Origin: an uncultured Erysipelotrichaceae bacterium
GTDB taxonomy: Bacteria > Bacillota_I > Bacilli_A > Erysipelotrichales > Erysipelotrichaceae
NCBI GenBank assembly: GCA_946621045.1
Contig: CAMOOA010000012.1
Coordinates: 1 to 18,020 of the forward strand
Reading direction: 5' to 3'
Length of the DNA: 18,020 nt
Made by a program: the position numbers and the translations under genes. Under the pieces are notes generated by a model. That model made no database searches. It was not told where the DNA came from and saw only the letters and a list, made by a program, of their open reading frames with translations. Below, one piece after another: positions 1,779 to 17,934 of this stretch (position 1 is the first letter of the stretch; each line of letters begins with the position of its first letter).

Positions 1779-1863
1779 GCATAGCAGAAAAATTTGAAGC
1801 GAAATCGCAGCGTCACTGTTTACTTTTTGAATAAAAATGCAAAAATATAAACGGAGGATAGTT

Positions 1864-2904
1864 ATGTTCAGCAAAAATCTGAAATACTACAGATTAAAGA
1901 AACACATGTCAAAAAAAGATCTTGCGGACAAAGCAAAGATCAGTGCAATGGCTGTTACAAATTATGAAAAAGGTGAACGAAATCCAAGCATGGAGATTCT
2001 GAATGCATTAGCAGACGCTTTGGATGTCAGAGTATCCGATTTTCTTGCGGTCAGAGATAAGAACATAACCTTTCAGCATGCGGAATTTCGAAAGAATACG
2101 TTACTTTCCGCAGCCCGACAGGAATTCATCAGGGAATCCGTTGAGGAATACTTTAATCGTTTTATGACGGCGGTTGAAATCCTCGGCGGAAATGTACTGC
2201 CCGATTTTCCTCCATGTCATATGCTTACGCTGTCGGATGATATAGAAGAAAATGCTGTGTCATTGCGAAAGCATCTGGGTTTTGCGGAGGATGGTCCGAT
2301 AGAAGATCTGATCGGAAAACTGGAAAACAAGGGAATACTGATTTTTGACTGCAGTATTGATAATACCGACTTTTCCGGAATGAACGGGTTTGTGAATGAT
2401 CGGCCATATATTGTTCTGAATACGAAGATGAGCACTGAACGAAATCGCTCTACGGCAGTTCATGAACTGGCGCATCTGATGTTTAAATGGCCGGATGAAA
2501 TGAGCGAAAAAGTCATTGAGCAGACCGCAACCGCAATCAGCGGCGCCTTTCTGTTTCCAAGGTCGGATGTATTGCGGGAACTCGGAGTTCATCGATCTGC
2601 AGTAACCAATGATATGATCAGGGTCGCAAAGGAATACGGGATTTCCATGATGATGCTGGCAAAGCGCGCGGAACTCTGCGGTGTTTTAAAAGCGTCAGTC
2701 GCAAAACAGTTTTTCATAAAGGCATCAAAAGCCGGGTGGAGAACGGCAGAACCATCCAGAATTGAAAAAGAAATGCCGGTATTATTTGAACAGCTTGTAT
2801 ATCGTGCAGTAAACGAAGGCGACATCAGTATTCAGCGAGGTGCTGAGCTGCTGAAACTGCCATATAAAACCGTGGCTTCCATGTGTCATCCGGCGGAGGT
2901 GTAA
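1864..2904 (+). CDS. XRE-family HTH regulator fused to ImmA/IrrE-type zinc peptidase (COG2856)
   Basis: The 346-residue protein has two domains. Residues 3-62 form an XRE helix-turn-helix (LKYYRLKKHMSKKDLADKA, then AMAVTNYEKGERNPS). Residues ~145-275 form an ImmA/IrrE-like metallopeptidase with HELAH at 200-204 and a probable third zinc ligand E219 before the conserved A-F-L-F-P stretch (228-232). Known ImmA/IrrE proteins cleave a partner repressor; in fused XRE-COG2856 proteins both roles may sit in one chain. ATG 1864 is chosen over the in-frame ATG at 1837 because GGAGG (1852-1856) lies 7 bases upstream of it. The stop is 3 bases before the PIN gene, whose ribosome site lies inside this gene's last codons. 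Base composition is lower in GC than the flanks (about 40% in bases 2041-2100), suggesting transfer. Confidence 0.88.
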   Translation: MFSKNLKYYRLKKHMSKKDLADKAKISAMAVTNYEKGERNPSMEILNALADALDVRVSDFLAVRDKNITFQHAEFRKNTLLSAARQEFIRESVEEYFNRFMTAVEILGGNVLPDFPPCHMLTLSDDIEENAVSLRKHLGFAEDGPIEDLIGKLENKGILIFDCSIDNTDFSGMNGFVNDRPYIVLNTKMSTERNRSTAVHELAHLMFKWPDEMSEKVIEQTATAISGAFLFPRSDVLRELGVHRSAVTNDMIRVAKEYGISMMMLAKRAELCGVLKASVAKQFFIKASKAGWRTAEPSRIEKEMPVLFEQLVYRAVNEGDISIQRGAELLKLPYKTVASMCHPAEV

Positions 2905-2907
2905 CTG

Positions 2908-3504
2908 ATGGATTATGTCAGCAGCGACACCAATGTATGGATCGATTTTTCCGCAATTGGAAAACTGGATCTTCCATTTCGGCTGTCTTATACCTATCTG
3001 ATGAGCAGAGATGCGGTCGAGGATGAATTGCTGTCTCCGCCTGAACTGGGGAAGAAACTGATATCCAACGGTCTTGTGCCGGTTGAGATTACAATCGATG
3101 AGTTCCTGCTTGCGGAAAAATACGGAACAATGTACAGGAAACTGTCGATATATGACAGAATTGCGCTGGCAATTGCGAAATGCCGTGACATTACATTATT
3201 AACGGGTGACGGCGCTTTGCGAAAAGCCGCAAAACAGGAGGGAGTTCCTGTTACAGGAACTTTGGGGTTACTTGACCAGCTGTGGGGACAGAAACTGATG
3301 ACAGCAGAGGAATATCAGGATACGCTTCTGAGCTTGCTCGATGTCAATAATGGAGTGGTACGTCTGCCCGAGACAGAACTGGAATCACGACTGTCAAAAT
3401 TGCTGGATGCGGAAATCAATATAAGCAAAAGCGATACACATATAACAGCCGGCAAACTGACCGGAACTAATCGGCAGGACGGATCATATCCGGCAAATCA
3501 TTAA
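2908..3504 (+). CDS. PIN-domain protein, probable ribonuclease (toxin-like)
   Basis: The 198-residue protein begins with SDTNVWIDF, the N-terminal PIN strand with D7. The other acidic residues fall where the fold needs them: E38/E40 (AVEDELL), D83 (YDRIALAIAK) and D101 (LLTGDGALRKAA). That gives a complete predicted Mg2+ site. The region after ~115 (GTLGLLDQLWGQKLMTAEEY) resembles the tail of DUF3368-type PIN proteins. The last ~40 residues are polar and unmatched. PIN nucleases cut RNA and are often toxins of type II modules. GGAGG at 2895-2899, inside the upstream gene's end, serves the ATG 8 bases on, so synthesis should depend on translation of the XRE-peptidase. Toxin function is inferred from family and arrangement only. 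Confidence 0.8.
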   Translation: MDYVSSDTNVWIDFSAIGKLDLPFRLSYTYLMSRDAVEDELLSPPELGKKLISNGLVPVEITIDEFLLAEKYGTMYRKLSIYDRIALAIAKCRDITLLTGDGALRKAAKQEGVPVTGTLGLLDQLWGQKLMTAEEYQDTLLSLLDVNNGVVRLPETELESRLSKLLDAEINISKSDTHITAGKLTGTNRQDGSYPANH

Positions 3505-8380: not shown

Positions 8381-11300
8381 ATGAACTCTGAAAAAAAATA
8401 CTCCAGAAATATGAGCCCGCTTGCCGTATGGGCGTTTGCGATCGGCACCAGTGTCGGCTGGGGATCGCTGATTGTGACGGCGCGGACCTATCTTGCGCAG
8501 GCAGGGCCGCTCGGCACGACGTTCGGCCTGTTTGCGGGGACCCTGATCATGCTGCTGATATGCCGCAGTTACGCGTATATGATGAAGAGCTTCCCGGAAA
8601 ACGGCGGAGCCTATGCCTATGCGCGGGAAGTCTTCGGCTATGACATGGGATTTCTTGCGGCGTGGTTTATCGTAATTACCTACCTTGCGATGCTGTGGGC
8701 AAATGCGACATCTTTGCCGCTGTTTGGAAAGATCTTTCTCGGCGGCTTTTTTGAGGTCGGAAAGATGTACACCATCTTCGGCTATGACATCTATTTCGGC
8801 GAAGTGCTTCTGTCGGTCGCTGCCCTGGTGTTCTTCGGGTTCCTGAGTTCCCGCAACAAATTCCTGATCAACCGCATCATGATTGCGCTGGCGCTGCTGT
8901 TTACGGGGGCGATCGTGATCACCTTCGCCGCATCGATGATCGGCGGCCGCAGCCGGATTGCCATGCCGTATCTGCCGGATGCGTCCGAGCTTTCGCAGAT
9001 TGCGAGAATTGCGGTAATTTCACCATGGGCGTTTATCGGATTTGAAAGCGTGTCCCATCAGATGGAGGAGTTCCGGTTTGAAAAAGGCCGCAGCTTCCGC
9101 ATTCTGGTTTGGGCGGTAATTTCGACGTCCGTACTTTATATTCTGATTACCCTCGCATCCGTCACCGCCTATCCGCCGCAGTATTCCGGCTGGCTGGAAT
9201 ACATTAAGGACCTCGACAATCTCAGCGGAATTGAGGCGCTGCCGACATTCTATGCGGCGTATACGTATCTTGGAAACGGCGGTTACTATCTCCTGATGGC
9301 TGCGCTGCTTGCGCTGGTGATTTCGAGTCTGATCGGAAACATCACATCGCTGAGCCGGATGATCTGCGCGATGGGAAAGGACCGGGTCATTCCGGAGTCC
9401 TTCGGAAAACTGAATAAATACTGCGTGCCGGAGAAAGCGATATGGCTTGTTGTATTAATGTCCTGCGTGATGCCGCTGGTCGGCCGCACGGCGATCAGCT
9501 GGATCGTGGATGTCACCACGATCGGCGCGGTCATGCTGTACGGGCTTGTTTCGGCCTGCGCCTATTCGCTGGCCAAGAACATGGGCGATACCCGGGAAAT
9601 GTATTACGGACTTGCCGGTGTCATAACCATGATCGCAATCGGCGCATGGTTTCTGCTTCCGAGTCTCTTCGTAAAAGGAAGCATCGCAACGGAAACATAT
9701 CTTCTGTTTATTCTCTGGAGTGTGCTGGGCTTCCTCTTTTTCCGGTACATCCTGCGCCGCGACAAAAAAAAGCGCTTCGGAACTTCCGTCAGTGTATGGG
9801 TCGTTCTGCTTGCGCTCGTCCTGCTTGTATCGCTGATCTGGATGCGGCAGTCAATGATCACGTCGTATGACACGACGCTTGCGGACATGCGGGCGTACTA
9901 TCATCAGCCCGGCGAAAGCAGTGAGGAGAGGACAAGGGATGAGCTCTATATCGCTGAGCTTATGGACCGTCATGAAGTCCTGAACTCAAGAACCATGCTT
10001 ATCGCGGTCGGCATGTTCGGATTTGCGCTGACCGTGATGCTGACGAATCACTCCTATATGAACCGGCGCCAGATGGAAAGCGAGATGAAGGCAAACCGCG
10101 ATCCGATGACCGGCGTCATGTCCAAGCACGCCTGGGTCGCAAAGGAAAAGGAAATCGATGCGGAAATCCGCGAAGGGGAGAGAAACGAATTTGCGGTCGT
10201 TGTCTGTGATGTGAACGGACTGAAGAAGATCAATGACACGCTGGGGCATAAAGCCGGAGATGAGTATATCCGCAAGGCATGCGCGCTGGTCTGCGATGTC
10301 TTCCAGCACAGTCCGGTATTCCGCGTCGGCGGCGATGAATTTGTGGCGCTGCTTACCGGGCGCGACTATGCCGTGCGTCATGAACTGATGAGCGCCCTGC
10401 ACGAGCGGTCGGCCGAAAACATCGGTCGGAACGAGGCGGTCGTTTCGGGCGGTCTGGCAGACTTTGAACCGGACAGGGATACCATCCTTCACCAGGTATT
10501 TGAACGGGCAGATGCGGAGATGTACAAGGAAAAGAAACTGCTCAAGAGTCTCGGCGCAGTTACCCGCGATGAGGAGCCGGATGTGCCGTATCTTCCGGAA
10601 CCGGAGCCGGTGGAAGAGATCATTTCCGTACGCCGGAAGATTCTGATCGTCGAGGATGAACCGATCAATCAGGAACTGCTTTCGACAATACTGGAAGAAG
10701 ACTATGAAATCCTGCTTGCGTCGGATGGCGGGGAAGCGCTTCAGGTGATGCGTGACCACAGCGATGAAATCGCGATTGTTCTCCTTGACCTGCAGATGCC
10801 GGGAATGAACGGCATCGACGTAATGAAAAACATGAAGAAGGACGCTTCGATTGCCGACCTCCCGGTGATTGTGCTGACTGCCGATCAGGAGGCCGAACTG
10901 AAGTGTCTCAAACTCGGCGCAATGGATTTTATTTCCAAGCCGTATCCGATCTGGGAAGTTGTCCGGGCCCGTGTGGACAAATGCATTGAACTCTCGGAAG
11001 ACCGTGAGACGATTCAGTCCACCGAGCGCGACAACCTGACAAAACTCTTCAATATCAGTTATTTCCACAACTATGTCCGGAAGTTTGACCAGCATTACTT
11101 TGACATGCCGATGGATGCGGTCGTTGTGGACATCAATCATTTCCATATGATCAATGAACGGTTCGGAAAGATGTACGGAGATACCGTACTGCGCCGGATC
11201 GGTGAGAGAATCCGGCGGCTCTGCCGTGAGATCAACGGTGTCGGCTGCCGCCAGGGCGCGGACATCTTCCTGATCTACTGTCCGCACCGGGATGATTACG

Positions 11301-12700
11301 AATGGGTCATGAAACAGATTCAGACCGCTCTGACCGAAGAGGAGCTTTCCACCAGCCGGGTCCGTCTGCGGCTCGGCGTATATCAGAATGCCGACAAGAC
11401 GCTTGATATCGAGCGGCGCTATGACCGTGCCAAGATCGCTTCGGATTCCGTCAAGACAGGCCGCGCCTCCATGATCGGAATCTATGATGAGAAAATGGGA
11501 GAGAGTGCCCTCTATCACGAGCGGCTGCTCGAAGACTTCCGGAAGTCGATGGACAACCGCGATTTCCTGGTATTCTTCCAGCCCAAATATGATATCCGTC
11601 CGGAGACGCCGGTACTGGCAAGTGCGGAGGCACTGGTGCGCTGGAAACATCCGGAACTGGGAATGATCAGCCCGGGAGTATTTATCCCGCTGCTTGAGGA
11701 AAACGGCATGATCACGGAACTGGACCGGTATGTCTGGCGTGAAACCGCCGCAACGATCCGGAGATGGAAAGACACGTTCGGATACTCCGTGCCTGTTTCG
11801 GTCAACGTTTCAAGGATTGACATGCTGATGCCGAACCTGAAAGCGGTGTTCCAGGAAATACTGGATGAATATCAGCTGACAAACAACGACCTGATTCTCG
11901 AAATCACGGAATCCGCATATACCGGAGAATCCGACCAGGTGATCACTACCGCAAGAGAGCTCCGGAACATGGATCTCGGCTTCCGCATTGAGATGGATGA
12001 CTTCGGCACGGGATACTCCTCCCTCGGCATGCTTTCGAATCTTCCGATCGATGCCCTGAAGCTGGACATGTCATTTGTCCGCAGCGCCTTCGGAGAAACC
12101 AGGGATACCCGGATGATCGAGCTGATCATTGACATTGCGGATTATCTCCATGTGCCGGTCGTTGCGGAAGGCGTTGAAACCGAGGAACAGTACCTGGTTC
12201 TCAAAGCACTCGGGTGCGATCTGATTCAGGGATATTACTTCTCGAAGCCGGTGCCGGAGGATGAATTCCGAAGCTTCCTGAAAGAGCGGAAAACGCAGAG
12301 CGGGGAAATCACGCCGGTTGTGCGCCGTACTGCCATGAGAATCTCACGCGCGCTGTCCGGAGACTTTGAGGATATCTACTATGTGGATATCATTACCGAC
12401 TGCTATCTCAAATTCACTTCGGGATCGGGCGGGGATCTGGATATTTCCCCGGGCGGTACGGATTTCTTCGACACTGCTGTGAATGAACTCCTCGCAAAGA
12501 CCGCGGAATCCGACCGGCAGGCGCTGTCGGATGCCCTGCAGAGAACCGCGCTCATGAAACAGATCAACAGCGGCGAGGAAGTAAGCATCAGGTTCAGCAT
12601 GCTGAAGAACGGGAAACCGGTTCCGTACCTTCTGAAAACCATCCGGACCCGGGCGAGCGACACGCATCATATTGTGATCGGTGTACAGCCTCAGAAGTGA
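8381..12700 (+). CDS. APC permease-GGDEF-REC-GGDEF(degenerate)-EAL-PAS-like fusion protein
   Basis: 1439 residues, start ATG 8381 after GTGAGG (8368-8373). Residues ~12-460 form a 12-TM APC-superfamily permease: broken-helix-like GTSVGWGSL (22-30), PENGGAYAY, then the basic cytoplasmic end RRDKKKR. TM13 (~470-487), a ~50-residue outside loop and TM14 (~538-556) follow. GGDEF1 (~572-725) is intact: D610, N618, D627, GGDEF 650-654, with no RxxD inhibitory site. The receiver (~752-870) has E758/D759, phospho-acceptor D803, T833 and K853. GGDEF2 (~881-1040) is degenerate (GADIF 959-963). EAL (~1045-1300) keeps E1083, N1142, E1174, D1206, D1207, K1227, E1263 and Q1283, predicting an active phosphodiesterase. 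Residues ~1315-1439 look PAS-like. Both synthase and hydrolase activity on c-di-GMP are predicted, gated by a transporter-like sensor and by phosphorylation. Whether it still transports is unknown. Confidence 0.92.
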   Translation: MNSEKKYSRNMSPLAVWAFAIGTSVGWGSLIVTARTYLAQAGPLGTTFGLFAGTLIMLLICRSYAYMMKSFPENGGAYAYAREVFGYDMGFLAAWFIVITYLAMLWANATSLPLFGKIFLGGFFEVGKMYTIFGYDIYFGEVLLSVAALVFFGFLSSRNKFLINRIMIALALLFTGAIVITFAASMIGGRSRIAMPYLPDASELSQIARIAVISPWAFIGFESVSHQMEEFRFEKGRSFRILVWAVISTSVLYILITLASVTAYPPQYSGWLEYIKDLDNLSGIEALPTFYAAYTYLGNGGYYLLMAALLALVISSLIGNITSLSRMICAMGKDRVIPESFGKLNKYCVPEKAIWLVVLMSCVMPLVGRTAISWIVDVTTIGAVMLYGLVSACAYSLAKNMGDTREMYYGLAGVITMIAIGAWFLLPSLFVKGSIATETYLLFILWSVLGFLFFRYILRRDKKKRFGTSVSVWVVLLALVLLVSLIWMRQSMITSYDTTLADMRAYYHQPGESSEERTRDELYIAELMDRHEVLNSRTMLIAVGMFGFALTVMLTNHSYMNRRQMESEMKANRDPMTGVMSKHAWVAKEKEIDAEIREGERNEFAVVVCDVNGLKKINDTLGHKAGDEYIRKACALVCDVFQHSPVFRVGGDEFVALLTGRDYAVRHELMSALHERSAENIGRNEAVVSGGLADFEPDRDTILHQVFERADAEMYKEKKLLKSLGAVTRDEEPDVPYLPEPEPVEEIISVRRKILIVEDEPINQELLSTILEEDYEILLASDGGEALQVMRDHSDEIAIVLLDLQMPGMNGIDVMKNMKKDASIADLPVIVLTADQEAELKCLKLGAMDFISKPYPIWEVVRARVDKCIELSEDRETIQSTERDNLTKLFNISYFHNYVRKFDQHYFDMPMDAVVVDINHFHMINERFGKMYGDTVLRRIGERIRRLCREINGVGCRQGADIFLIYCPHRDDYEWVMKQIQTALTEEELSTSRVRLRLGVYQNADKTLDIERRYDRAKIASDSVKTGRASMIGIYDEKMGESALYHERLLEDFRKSMDNRDFLVFFQPKYDIRPETPVLASAEALVRWKHPELGMISPGVFIPLLEENGMITELDRYVWRETAATIRRWKDTFGYSVPVSVNVSRIDMLMPNLKAVFQEILDEYQLTNNDLILEITESAYTGESDQVITTARELRNMDLGFRIEMDDFGTGYSSLGMLSNLPIDALKLDMSFVRSAFGETRDTRMIELIIDIADYLHVPVVAEGVETEEQYLVLKALGCDLIQGYYFSKPVPEDEFRSFLKERKTQSGEITPVVRRTAMRISRALSGDFEDIYYVDIITDCYLKFTSGSGGDLDISPGGTDFFDTAVNELLAKTAESDRQALSDALQRTALMKQINSGEEVSIRFSMLKNGKPVPYLLKTIRTRASDTHHIVIGVQPQK

Positions 12701-12935: not shown

Positions 12936-13050
12936 GCATGTGTAATTCAACGGACACATAGTGGACACAGTCGCCCGCCCTTCAGATTCCTCTGAGGGAC
13001 CCGCGGAACCGGATTGGTCACTGCCTTCAGGTGATTACGGAGACAATGAT

Positions 13051-15213
13051 ATGGAAAAGTTTCAGTTCAGTCCGGTCCAGCATATGATTCTGGAACGGTC
13101 ACCGGTGCCCTTCGGCATTTACCAGTACATAAATCAGAAAATCGCGGTGATTCTTGTCAGTGACGGATTCCTCGATCTTTTTCACGTGAGCCGGGAAGGA
13201 CTGGCCGAACAGATGGAAGAAAATGCCCATGTGTTCACACACCCCGCTGATGTCGCAAAGGTTTCCGGCGCAATCCGGCGGTTTGCGACGGAAGGCGGAG
13301 ACTACGATGTGGTATACCGCACAAAAGCGCCGGACGAGGACCATTACACGATCATTCATGCGCTCGGAAAACATGTGCCGACCAATGACGGACGGCAGCT
13401 TGCGGTAATCTGGTATGCCGATGAGGGTGCGATAAAGACGGGACCGGAGACGGAAGACATTGAAGTAAATCTTACGGTTCTGAATCACACGATGCAGGAT
13501 ATCCTCAGCGCAGACTATGTCATGCGCCGGTATCATTACGATGATGTGACCGGACTGCCGAATATGAGTTATTTTATTCAGCTGGCAAGTATGTCACACC
13601 GGAATTATCCGGCAGCGGACCCGGCCGTTGTATTTTTTGATCTGACCGGGATGAAGCGCTATAACGAGCGTTACGGTTTTGCGCAGGGCAACCGGCTTCT
13701 GCGCGGATTTGCGGAGATCCTGCAGGATGAGTTCAAGGCGGAAAACTGCGGACGGCTCAGCGGTGATCATTTTGCGGTATATATGCAGGATGCGTCGGGC
13801 ATGGATGCTGTGATGAACCGCGTCTTTAAACGTGCGGGAACGCTGAATGAAGGAAGAAGCCTTCCGGTGCGTGCCGGCATTTACCGGTTTGCGTACGGGG
13901 ATACGGATATGACAAATGCCTGCGACCGGGCAAAGATTGCCTGCGACCAGGAACGCAGTTTCTACAATTCGGCATATACCGTCTTTAATGAGACGTTCTT
14001 TCAGAAGCTGGAACAGCAGTCTTACGTACTGGAAAACTTTGACCGCGCGCTGAACGAAGGCTGGATTCAGGTATACTACCAGCCGGTTGTCCGTGCGGTA
14101 ACAGGGGAAGTCTGCGATGAGGAAGCTCTCGCCCGATGGGTCGATCCTGAGCGGGGAATCCTGAGCCCCGGTGAATTCATTCCGTATCTGGAAGATGCCG
14201 GAATGCTGCACAGGCTTGATCTTTATGTCATTGAAACCGCGCTCGCGGAAATCAGTGACCGGAAGGCCGCCGGACTCTTCATTGTGCCGATTTCCGTGAA
14301 CCTGTCCTGGAATGATTTCACGCGCAGAGATATGGTGACGGAAATCTCGGAGCGGCTGGACCGGTACGGCGTGCCGAGACATATGCTCAATGTGGAGATC
14401 ACGGAATCCGCGGTCGGAAAGAACCCGGAGTACATGCGTCTTCAGGTGGAACGGTTCCATCAGGCGGGCATTAATGTCTGGATGGATGATTTCGGAAGCG
14501 GATATTCCTCTCTGGAATTTCTGCAGAGTTTTGACTTTGATCTGATTAAGTTTGATCTTCAGTTCGTGAAGAATCTGTCTGCGGGTGAAAAAAGCAGGAT
14601 TATCATGACGCAGCTGGTTCAGATGGCCCTGAAAATAGGCATCGATACGATAGCCGAAGGTGTGGAGACTGCCGAACAGGAGAGTTTTCTGCGTGAAATC
14701 GGCGTCGACAAGATTCAGGGGTTCTATTACAGCCGTCCTGTCCCGCTGAAAGAAATACTGCGGCGGTATGCCAATAACGAAGGCATCGGCTTTGAAAATG
14801 TTGATGCGGCACAGTATTACAATGCAATCTCAAAGACAAACCTCAGCGATCCGGGTGTGACAAACGACGTATACAGCAGTGACTCTTATTACAATGCGGT
14901 GCCGATGGGTATCATCGAGCTGGATGGAGATACTGCTTATGCAGTGCGGTTTAACCAGTCCTTCCAGAGTGTGGTGAGCCGGCTGAAGGATATGCCGATC
15001 GATCTCAACGGAAAGAAAAACATGCGGGTGGAAATCGAACTGGATGATGTCTTCCGGGATGCGGCATTCCGGTGCGTGAAAACCGGAGAGTGGGAGTACA
15101 TCCGGGACTGCGTGCTGCGCGGGCTGACAATCAATGCCTTCCTGCGGAAAATTGCGGTCAACCCGGTAACCAATGCGGCTGCGGTGCTTGTGATTATGAT
15201 ATCGGTTCTCTGA
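13051..15213 (+). CDS. PAS-GGDEF(degenerate)-EAL-PAS-like protein, predicted c-di-GMP phosphodiesterase
   Basis: 720 residues. ATG 13051 is chosen over the in-frame GTG at 12961: GGAGA (13039-13043) sits 7 bases before the ATG, and the extra 30 residues are low-complexity and lack a ribosome site. Residues ~12-125 form a PAS-type sensor (ERSPVPFGIYQYINQK). GGDEF (~160-310) is degenerate, SGDHF at 237-241, and N214 replaces the usual substrate-binding Asp, so synthase activity is unlikely. EAL (~320-575) keeps the full set E358, N417, E449, D479, D480, K500, E536 and Q556, predicting hydrolysis of c-di-GMP to pGpG. Residues ~612-720 look like a second PAS fold (MGIIELDGD...). No membrane segment, so cytoplasmic. 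It has its own promoter after a terminator. Degenerate GGDEF domains often act as GTP sensors in such proteins. Confidence 0.9.
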   Translation: MEKFQFSPVQHMILERSPVPFGIYQYINQKIAVILVSDGFLDLFHVSREGLAEQMEENAHVFTHPADVAKVSGAIRRFATEGGDYDVVYRTKAPDEDHYTIIHALGKHVPTNDGRQLAVIWYADEGAIKTGPETEDIEVNLTVLNHTMQDILSADYVMRRYHYDDVTGLPNMSYFIQLASMSHRNYPAADPAVVFFDLTGMKRYNERYGFAQGNRLLRGFAEILQDEFKAENCGRLSGDHFAVYMQDASGMDAVMNRVFKRAGTLNEGRSLPVRAGIYRFAYGDTDMTNACDRAKIACDQERSFYNSAYTVFNETFFQKLEQQSYVLENFDRALNEGWIQVYYQPVVRAVTGEVCDEEALARWVDPERGILSPGEFIPYLEDAGMLHRLDLYVIETALAEISDRKAAGLFIVPISVNLSWNDFTRRDMVTEISERLDRYGVPRHMLNVEITESAVGKNPEYMRLQVERFHQAGINVWMDDFGSGYSSLEFLQSFDFDLIKFDLQFVKNLSAGEKSRIIMTQLVQMALKIGIDTIAEGVETAEQESFLREIGVDKIQGFYYSRPVPLKEILRRYANNEGIGFENVDAAQYYNAISKTNLSDPGVTNDVYSSDSYYNAVPMGIIELDGDTAYAVRFNQSFQSVVSRLKDMPIDLNGKKNMRVEIELDDVFRDAAFRCVKTGEWEYIRDCVLRGLTINAFLRKIAVNPVTNAAAVLVIMISVL

Positions 15214-16629: not shown

Positions 16630-17934
16630 TTACGGATGATTCGGGGGAAGCGGGGTTCCGGTCTCGAGGGATGAACCGGTGGAAATCATGAATCCTGCCA
16701 GCATCCGGCCAAGTGAAAACATGATCACGATTTCATCATCCTGCCAGATTCTGAGATTATGCGGCTCTGCGAAAATCAGGTATCCGTAAAAGAATCTGCC
16801 GGTCCTTACTTTGACCGCAAGAACGGTCTCAAAGGAATGCTTTTTCAGCGTCCTGAAGAACACGGGACTGAGTTTGCTGATGGTATCGATCTGATTGGTG
16901 GTGAAAACGTCATCTGTCATCAGCGCATCGATATCTTCCGCGCTTCCGGTCATTTCACCGGTGCGGATACTCCGCATCACACCGTCGCGGCCGGCATAAT
17001 ACATGTCGCTGATATGAAGATCATCTCCTACCGCTGAAAAGATGCGCCGCATTTTTTCGTGTACATCAAATGCGCTGTCAAACTGGTCCGCGATCTCACG
17101 GATGAGCTGATACTGCGTCCGGTGCTTCAGTTCACGGATCACAATATCCTTATGCTTGGCAGCCACATATATGATGTAGCAGTTCCTGCCCTTGCTTTTT
17201 CCGCGGTACAGTGTTTTATCTATGGCTTCAAACATCTCGTCATAATCGGACGCATCATGCGGAAAGGTCGCAAGGCCGGCTGTTCCGGTCACAAAAAGCT
17301 CAAATTCTCCCGCATGGTATGTCTTGCGGAAGACCCTGGCGTTGCTGAACATATCGAGGCAGAACTGCTTTTTCGCAAAATAGGAAGTGGCCTCAAGGTT
17401 AATGAACAGGAATTCATCGCCGCCGAATCTGCCCGCAACACCGCGTTCGTCAAGCAGACTGATCAGCGAGGATGCGACGCCCTGCAGAACAGCGTCCCCG
17501 GCCGCGTGCCCGTAGGTATCGTTGATGTATTTGAAATTATCAAGATCGATCATGCCGAACGTAAAAGGCCGGCCCTGTCGGATCAGATCCTGAACATACT
17601 CAATAATATAAGCACGTGTAACAAGCCCGGTGAGCGGATCCAGGACATCTGAAATCCTGCGGCCGTCGAGCAGTTTTTTAAAGAACGGATATTGTTCCAG
17701 CTGGCTGCGTGTATACATAGGCTTCCCTAATCTGTATTCTATCAGTTTTCGTGCATGTGTGTACAGAGCATGGTTTTCCGGCAGAACACAGGCAGAAAAA
17801 GATGTATGGGTACGGATAACTTCGGTGAGGGCATGCAGTACTGTCTGCCCGAACCGTGAAAAGGCGTAATGCGGGAAATATAATCCCGAGTTTGACAGTT
17901 GAATAAAAGAAGAATGACCGGAAGCTCCTTCCAT
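16630..17934 (-). CDS. GGDEF diguanylate cyclase with GAF-like C-terminal domain
   Basis: The 434-residue protein has a ~95-residue N-terminal segment of unknown fold (no clear membrane helix) and a GGDEF domain at ~96-260. That domain has DPLTGL (99-104), metal D130, substrate contacts N138 and D147, and an intact RFGGDEF (169-175). It is predicted to make c-di-GMP from two GTP. The inhibitory RxxD site five residues before the signature is absent, so product inhibition by that route is not expected. Residues ~265-420 look like a GAF-type sensor (helix, then ISDMYYAGRDGV..., and FFYGYLIFAEPHNLRIWQDDEI). Placing the sensor after GGDEF is the less common order. ATG 17934 is the only start in the frame, whose upstream limit is a stop codon. 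It lacks a good ribosome site and directly abuts a 14-bp palindrome. Convergent with the lipoprotein gene. Confidence 0.88.
   Translation of the reverse strand: MEGASGHSSFIQLSNSGLYFPHYAFSRFGQTVLHALTEVIRTHTSFSACVLPENHALYTHARKLIEYRLGKPMYTRSQLEQYPFFKKLLDGRRISDVLDPLTGLVTRAYIIEYVQDLIRQGRPFTFGMIDLDNFKYINDTYGHAAGDAVLQGVASSLISLLDERGVAGRFGGDEFLFINLEATSYFAKKQFCLDMFSNARVFRKTYHAGEFELFVTGTAGLATFPHDASDYDEMFEAIDKTLYRGKSKGRNCYIIYVAAKHKDIVIRELKHRTQYQLIREIADQFDSAFDVHEKMRRIFSAVGDDLHISDMYYAGRDGVMRSIRTGEMTGSAEDIDALMTDDVFTTNQIDTISKLSPVFFRTLKKHSFETVLAVKVRTGRFFYGYLIFAEPHNLRIWQDDEIVIMFSLGRMLAGFMISTGSSLETGTPLPPNHP

Follow-up and report, generated by a model that had tools for sequence, protein, structure and literature searches.

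Amino acid permease-type heads joined to cyclic di-GMP enzymes and histidine kinases: a candidate receptor family found mostly in gut bacteria

What is a full-length permease doing at the front of a protein that carries domains for both the synthesis and the breakdown of cyclic di-GMP (c-di-GMP)? The question is raised by a gene in an 18,020-nucleotide stretch of DNA from an uncultured Erysipelotrichaceae bacterium (contig CAMOOA010000012.1; the whole stretch is called the window here), in which positions 8381-12700 of the forward strand form a single open frame of 1439 amino acids (aa). A preliminary description made from the sequence had read in this uninterrupted frame an APC-like permease with 12 transmembrane (TM) helices, two further TM helices, a GGDEF domain, a receiver (REC), a degenerate GGDEF (GGDEF*), an EAL domain and a PAS-like tail. 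The open frame, Pfam profiles and a structural model confirm these parts in the order APC permease, TM13/14, long helix, GGDEF1, REC, GGDEF*, EAL and PAS-like tail. We lean slightly toward reading the protein as a permease-headed receptor enzyme in which the permease would control synthesis and a kinase-fed receiver would control breakdown, and which would have arisen by the joining of neighboring genes. The real find is the wider permease-headed family to which this protein belongs.

A fused gene and the wider family

That assembly or gene calling joined unrelated genes is a practically negligible explanation of this frame, even if the window contig is not directly checkable against a whole genome. 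When the head region (residues 1-560) was searched against 5.8 billion proteins (candidate lengths 0.55-1.75 times that of the query, E-value at most 1e-3), 560 proteins matched. Among the best 120, which include the window's own protein, the core order permease-TM13/14-GGDEF-REC-GGDEF*-EAL is found in 109, with the tail in 66 and without it in 43; the remaining 11 are shorter or lack REC. The recurrence of this order in 108 of the 119 other listed homologs, together with a fused gene of 1326 aa within a 3.86-Mb contig of Lachnospiraceae bacterium AC2029 (L008), rules out the assembly join between a permease gene and a GGDEF gene that the preliminary description had raised as a way for its reading to fail. 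The few named rows are annotated as "amino acid permease" of Lachnospiraceae, Oscillospiraceae or Clostridia. At one locus (L010, 10001-14316) the fused gene is called as a permease frame of 483 aa that overlaps a frame of 968 aa for the remainder, owing to a true frameshift or to an error in the sequence.

The earlier reading had left out that related heads also carry GGDEF alone (about 740 aa) or hybrid histidine kinases (about 930-1130 aa). When GTDB genome contigs were scanned with a head alignment of eight rows, 525 relatives were found, and the best 80, forming 79 distinct loci (L001-L079), were kept; the scan with a single head sequence returned none. The complete headed open reading frames (ORFs) in these loci comprise 40 permease-TM13/14-GGDEF proteins of about 740 aa (permease-GGDEF), 22 fused proteins with the tail and 14 without it, four permease-kinases that Pfam assigns as HisKA-HATPase-REC hybrid kinases, and one each of permease-PAS-GGDEF, permease-GGDEF-GGDEF* and permease alone, the last being the front part of a fused gene that is split. 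A search with a permease-kinase head matched 1974 proteins at an E-value of at most 1e-3, and the best 120, query included, all contain HATPase_c, HisKA and Response_reg, with the SHEIRTP box and the Asp of the last receiver present in every one. A search with a permease-GGDEF head matched 1517 proteins at the same threshold; its best 120 were examined and share 20 rows with the first list. Matches ranked below the best 120 of each search may include other permeases.

An input domain that recurs on different outputs is generally a sensor head. The occurrence of the same kind of head on cyclases and histidine kinases therefore suggests that, in this family, transporters have been reused as receptors.

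Record titles place the loci mainly in Bacillota, mostly as metagenome-assembled genomes from the gut, with some in Actinomycetota; the animal sites named are goat, sheep or roe deer gut. We searched for heads in 18 genomes drawn from the loci, and so head-bearing by choice. Judged by frame length and domains, 11 of the 18 contain the fused gene, and seven of these 11 contain a permease-kinase as well (G003, G004, G005, G006, G007, G008 and G017). Within the family of G003 (titled Lachnospiraceae), heads at an E-value of at most 1e-80 occur in 13 of 200 genomes, with three frames of fused length and one of permease-GGDEF length. Across the phylum of G003 the same threshold gives heads in 8 of 398 genomes, with fused length only in G003 itself, and in the phylum of G016 it gives one genome in 296, G016 itself. 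The permease-headed family thus has many database members and a patchy distribution.

Further variants were seen at other loci. In L123, L124 and L132, heads are followed by PAS-like tail domains and then by a kinase or GGDEF, a further output variant; L123 and L124 fall in the same head-tree branch as L014. L115-L119 encode permeases of 523-600 aa with only a short C-terminal extension, L115-L118 in a deeper head branch and L119 on a long branch. In L117 and L118 the neighbors of such a permease, encoded on the opposite strand, are a histidine kinase gene and a receiver gene, which may form a two-component system coupled to the permease without fusion. Permease-kinase genes (810-838 aa) stand in tandem pairs in L130 (2504-7406, reverse strand) and L131 (393-5382, reverse strand). 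In L130 one copy has HATPase below the cut-off and no HisKA listed, and the other has HisKA below the cut-off; the L131 kinases were scored with our own kinase profile only. Pseudo-kinases are possibly present among these pairs. A sampled genome also encodes an APC permease fused to TrkA_C (689 aa; L121, 4376-6445, reverse strand), a further architecture of the regulated-permease type.

The permease head and its proposed route to the enzymes

The head occupies residues 1-460 of the window protein (8381-9760, forward strand). A profile search for APC in this region, proposed in the preliminary description, found AA_permease_2 well above the cut-off (92.9 bits against 27, residues 13-430). AA_permease was also found, and the sodium:solute symporter (SSS) family gave no match in the window protein at E-values up to 0.01. 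The head model has the APC/LeuT fold, with fold matches that include KimA solved with c-di-AMP. An eight-row head profile matched CAT, LAT, GkApcT-like and AdiC chains in the PDB; the PDB search with the single head sequence gave no match.

Among sequences down to 47% identity, the best-conserved stretches of the head are TM1, TM3, TM6 and TM10. The TM1 motif GWG (residues 26-28 of the window protein) and the TM6 motif WxFxGFE (WAFIGFE, residues 216-222) are each present in 120/120 of the best matches to the window head, in 100/100 and 99/100, respectively, of the rows new to the permease-GGDEF list, and in 111/120 and 114/120 of the best matches to the kinase-type head. In an alignment with AdiC and CadB, the TM6 motif of the window protein matches the WSFIGVE of AdiC, and GWG lies at the position of AdiC GSG, with Trp in place of Ser. 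We take AdiC Trp202, Gly206, Glu208 and Ser26 to be residues important for substrate or gating. The Trp for Ser exchange speaks against a sensing role, as it might alter or block amino acid binding, and the loss of the small residue of AdiC at this position would also fit a permease that no longer works and has been retained only to anchor the protein in the membrane, a relic. GWG is present, however, in a stand-alone permease of 468 aa from Lachnospiraceae bacterium AC2029, and the Trp alone is therefore no argument for lost transport. With that motif shared and TM1, TM3, TM6 and TM10 the best-kept parts of the head, we regard a relic as very unlikely. By eye, the stand-alone gene (L120, 5386-6792, reverse strand) is flanked by two genes resembling ATP-grasp ligases, with genes of sugar-nucleotide type beyond, and these neighbors may be a clue to what substrate the wider branch has.

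Between head and cyclase lie residues 461-572 (9761-10096). Hydropathy, charges and the model divide this segment into TM13 (470-488), a predicted extracytoplasmic helical hairpin (489-537), TM14 (538-556) and a signaling helix that enters the GGDEF domain. Pfam gives no match to residues 431-570, where the model has two long helices with hydrophobic peaks, unbroken over residues 469-507 and 514-572, the latter running from TM14 up to GGDEF1. Four residues of the TM13-14 segment, W487, Q490, E566 and E568, are invariant in a 64-row alignment.

GGDEF1 (residues 571-722; 10091-10546) is predicted to be an active diguanylate cyclase. Its GGDEF motif is intact in the window protein and in all 120 of the best-matching rows. 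The RxxD inhibitory site is absent, being FQHS in the window protein, FxHS and similar in the listed rows, and FxxS or YxxS in 82/82 locus ORFs of the fused and permease-GGDEF classes. After a linker (residues 723-751; 10547-10633), the receiver (residues 752-873; 10634-10999) retains the phospho-acceptor Asp, acidic pair, Thr/Ser and Lys (motifs LDL, ED, TAD and KPY). The degenerate GGDEF* (residues 880-1030; 11018-11470) reads QGADIF, and the EAL domain (residues 1050-1292; 11528-12256), a predicted phosphodiesterase, has its catalytic motifs, with the DDFG aspartates and EGVE each kept in 110 of the 111 listed rows that contain the domain. The tail (residues 1306-1439; 12296-12697) has secondary structure of the PAS type in the model and is present in 66 of the 120 listed rows; Pfam gives no match to it in the full protein and finds no histidine kinase output. 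We left the domain arrangement of the C-terminal half unused because the predicted TM-score (pTM) of its model is 0.48; its list of structural matches is filled by model residues 322-747.

These domains bear on the possibility that the signal runs the other way, with the permease as a working transporter whose uptake the cytoplasmic domains regulate by turning over c-di-GMP or by phosphorylation. Regulatory C-termini do occur on transporters of the APC fold, as KimA with c-di-AMP and the APC-TrkA_C protein illustrate, and the TM6 motif looks transport-competent beside that of AdiC. Against such a valve, the head comes with interchangeable outputs, among them hybrid kinases that keep the phosphoacceptor, and catalytic sites for a diffusible messenger, needless for a purely local valve, are kept in nearly all domain-bearing rows. 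We consider this reversal unlikely.

Two halves, a probable fusion and neighboring kinases

The preliminary description had treated the receiver as one more domain in the chain. Comparison shows instead that the protein has two separable halves, which are neighboring genes in many relatives, sometimes beside hybrid kinases. Relatives also encode the receiver-GGDEF*-EAL half on its own, as a gene or cassette of about 560-750 aa (three are of 1161-1184 aa). Such a cassette directly follows 15 of 43 permease-GGDEF ORFs on the same strand, at a distance of at most 400 bp, and in L019, L025 and L065 the two genes overlap by 4 bp. When both sides and both strands are counted, 18 of 43 permease-GGDEF ORFs have a cassette at most 500 bp away, the two sets of 43 differing by one ORF (L128 in the downstream count, L049 in the other). 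Seen from the cassettes, the 1.18 Mb of L001-L079 hold 23 separate ORFs of this kind, leaving aside the broken piece of L010. All but one are no farther than 500 bp from a headed gene (18 permease-GGDEF, 3 fused and 1 permease-kinase), and the remaining one, in L032, is one kinase gene away; these loci were chosen for holding a head and extend at most 10 kb beyond it, and the search for cassettes was confined to them.

The linker begins with GAVTR, which corresponds to the C-terminus of permease-GGDEF proteins: of eight compared, five end in GA-x-TR (one with an extra residue), two in GVGR and one in GARAR, and the fused-protein consensus here is LGAVTRDDE. The linker between the halves is variable among homologs. 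Identity to the receiver-EAL part of the window protein declines stepwise, with a median of 67.8% for fused ORFs (n = 39), 54.1% for separate ORFs of the loci (n = 22), 46.5% for cassettes beside permease-kinases (n = 7) and 32.6% for EAL proteins without a receiver (n = 5). We built a cassette tree of 71 rows from ORFs with an EAL score of at least 200 bits and a GGDEF* match, which leaves L026 and the window gene at 12961-15213 as its two controls. The EAL ORFs of L042, L047 and L110, which score lower, are outside the tree and included in the identity comparison. Forty fused rows, one of them the piece from L010, lie on one side of a branch with support of 100/100, and the placement of this clade inside the separate cassettes depends on rooting at the long-branched window control.

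Because the separate halves are neighboring genes and kinases adjoin some fused genes, two operon partners, permease-GGDEF and receiver-GGDEF*-EAL, appear to have been fused in the window protein. Of 37 fused genes, 8 have a hybrid kinase gene no more than 500 bp away, as do 7 of 43 permease-GGDEF genes; 3 of these 43 have a permease-kinase gene beside them. Downstream of the fused gene, the kinase is 20 bp away in L005 and 11 bp away in L015, and in L030 and L038 the two frames overlap as called. L019 and L025 have the order kinase, kinase, permease-GGDEF, receiver-GGDEF*-EAL. In seven genomes (L023, L110-L114 and L126) the recurring order is a kinase of about 500 aa (cut by the end of the stretch in L113), receiver-GGDEF*-EAL and permease-kinase, and in L136 a permease-kinase adjoins receiver-GGDEF*-EAL. 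Of seven neighboring kinases scanned for input domains, three have PAS, two a weak dCache match below the cut-off and two no known domain.

Several of our results pull against this account of the fusion and its kinases. The window has no kinase gene in its ORF list or by Pfam, and no kinase lies nearer than 500 bp to 29 of 37 fused genes (for 9 of the 37, the sequence extends less than 0.8 kb to one or both sides). No cassette lies directly downstream of 24 of 43 permease-GGDEF ORFs that have enough downstream sequence, and another 4 have less than 1.5 kb; of the 24, L054 has a cassette just upstream, L011 a convergent one at 171 bp and L032 one behind a kinase gene. The receiver-less GGDEF-EAL control L026 has 46% identity to the window protein, and the seven cassettes beside permease-kinases group with it at 100/100. 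The case for these cassettes as special kin of the fused ones is therefore weakened, since L026 is equally near in tree and identity. A single simple fusion was rejected as the full history: the cassette tree gives one fused group, and on head trees the fused label needs three changes (a tree of 45 rows, taking roughly one locus row in two) or ten (a quick tree of 154 rows, where the count is raised by truncated forms that were assigned to other groups). It looks as if the cassette was fused once and heads were later exchanged or cassettes lost.

The sequence of events in the receptor reading would be as follows. The APC-fold head would take an external small molecule, probably amino acid-like, into its substrate pocket, and its conformation would pass through TM13-TM14 and the continuous helix to paired GGDEF1 domains, setting the rate of c-di-GMP synthesis. 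A second and independent input, phosphate from a hybrid histidine kinase, would reach the receiver, which may act through GGDEF* on the EAL domain that would destroy c-di-GMP. Two neighboring genes, a permease-cyclase and a receiver-phosphodiesterase, would have been joined to give this protein. Of this account, the architecture, the intact motifs, the gene order and the phylogeny are observed here, whereas ligand binding, signal flow from head to enzyme, dimer coupling and the pairing of kinase with receiver are inferred. A permease that senses a solute, as the preliminary description had it, is plausible. Given the two separable halves and the occasional hybrid kinase neighbors, the likely design has two inputs, with the permease acting on synthesis and a phosphorelay on breakdown, rather than one input setting the balance.

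Other genes and elements were seen along the way. Beside the fused gene, the window encodes a further c-di-GMP protein of 750 aa (12961-15213, forward strand; marginal PAS_3, GGDEF and EAL), whose GGDEF-EAL is a distant relative with at most 35% identity to any row of the cassette tree, and a GGDEF protein of 434 aa (16630-17934, reverse strand). A gene at 1837-3504 (forward strand) combines a helix-turn-helix (HTH) with an IrrE-like metallopeptidase; its best NCBIfam match is a repressor/antitoxin of the spr1629 type at 109.7 bits, far under the cut-off of 335, and a PIN-domain gene (just below its cut-off) starts 3 bp later. This looks like a toxin-antitoxin-type pair. An Rfam search of the window gave no match, and one of ten loci gave a single small RNA match above the gathering score, SpF59 (RF02440; L052, 4581-4630, forward strand), about 2 kb upstream of a kinase gene.

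Place among transporter-headed signaling proteins

The comparison with CbrA offered in the preliminary description proved apt, in that SLC5-headed kinases are the nearest known kind. CbrA, MxtR/CrbS and PrlS are SLC5/SSS transceptors in which, as in the window protein, an N-terminal secondary transporter of the LeuT fold sits on cytoplasmic signaling domains, hybrid kinases included (PMC13022988, PMC7096432 and PMC7918813; statements here and below refer to the parts available of each paper cited). Unlike these proteins, the window protein has an APC (AA_permease_2) rather than an SSS/SLC5 head, and its output is c-di-GMP synthesis and breakdown rather than a kinase; no STAC domain was found among its Pfam matches. 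With no SSS match and no kinase output in the window protein (kinases occurring in its sister proteins), we rejected membership among the SLC5-STAC kinases.

Other likenesses are partial. To GGDEF-EAL proteins with a degenerate GGDEF, such as the structural matches PA0575 and DosP, the window protein adds an intact GGDEF upstream that has a separate membrane input, and a receiver that lies between the two GGDEF domains. Like PleD and RocR it has REC next to GGDEF or EAL; unlike those matches, which lack a transporter head, it has REC in mid-protein, after a fused cyclase. The EIIC component of phosphotransferase systems (PTS) has a fold unrelated to that of APC permeases. Proteins with PTS_EIIC also place a transporter component in a c-di-GMP enzyme, an arrangement described as rare, and unlike the APC head, EIIC is described as a sugar-PTS phosphoreceiver domain (PMC8846402). 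In the available portion of that review of c-di-GMP sensory domains, the word permease is absent from the main text. Elsewhere, APC permeases are named only in an expression table in what is available of PMC9371280, and PMC11109136 presents a 5TMR-NRAMP protein as the only one among its assemblies with an integral membrane transporter as a fused domain. SSS heads are reported on kinases and also with GAF and PP2C domains (PMC7918813), and varied outputs on a transporter head are therefore already known for SSS. Among the titles and abstract openings listed in searches of the open-licence literature, which leaves subscription papers mostly outside, no description was found of an APC permease joined to GGDEF, EAL or a histidine kinase, nor of the exact domain order, in keeping with the preliminary description. 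A transporter-headed signaling protein is of a known kind; the APC head and the outputs seen here appear to be new, and the evolutionary path is readable.

CbrA, the best-studied analog, also supplies a precedent for a design in which transport and signaling are both real and uncoupled, the fusion fixing dose or place only and the sensed signals being cytoplasmic. The transporter domain of CbrA moves histidine, though the activities of the protein are not significantly affected by histidine (PMC7096432), and a CbrA variant without the transporter can still signal, from which a review infers a likely intracellular signal (PMC7918813). Both results also count against the receptor reading. The variable linker between the two halves of our protein fits the same idea. 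Among the sampled genomes, a second head at an E-value of at most 1e-15 is absent from four of the 11 with a fused gene (G001, G002, G011 and G012), which speaks against the receptor reading. Against the uncoupled design, the unbroken TM14-GGDEF1 helix and the conserved W487, Q490, E566 and E568 suggest mechanical coupling, at least for GGDEF1, and we judge that design unlikely. For CbrA itself, a structure preprint proposes mechanical coupling through STAC and calls transceptors, which unite a secondary transporter with an enzyme in a single chain, rare (PMC13022988), yet the heads described here match 560, 1974 and 1517 proteins.

We are evenly divided over the fuller proposal that these proteins form an undescribed APC-permease receptor superfamily, mostly of gut bacteria, with cyclase, hybrid-kinase and two-input outputs, in which solute occupancy would set synthesis and a phosphorelay breakdown, perhaps at times through a permease-headed kinase. 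The presence of three outputs on one kind of head makes the distinction between the sensing of transport and the sensing of ligand binding directly testable. If the proposal is true, gut anaerobes would have a link between the sensing of nutrients and c-di-GMP.

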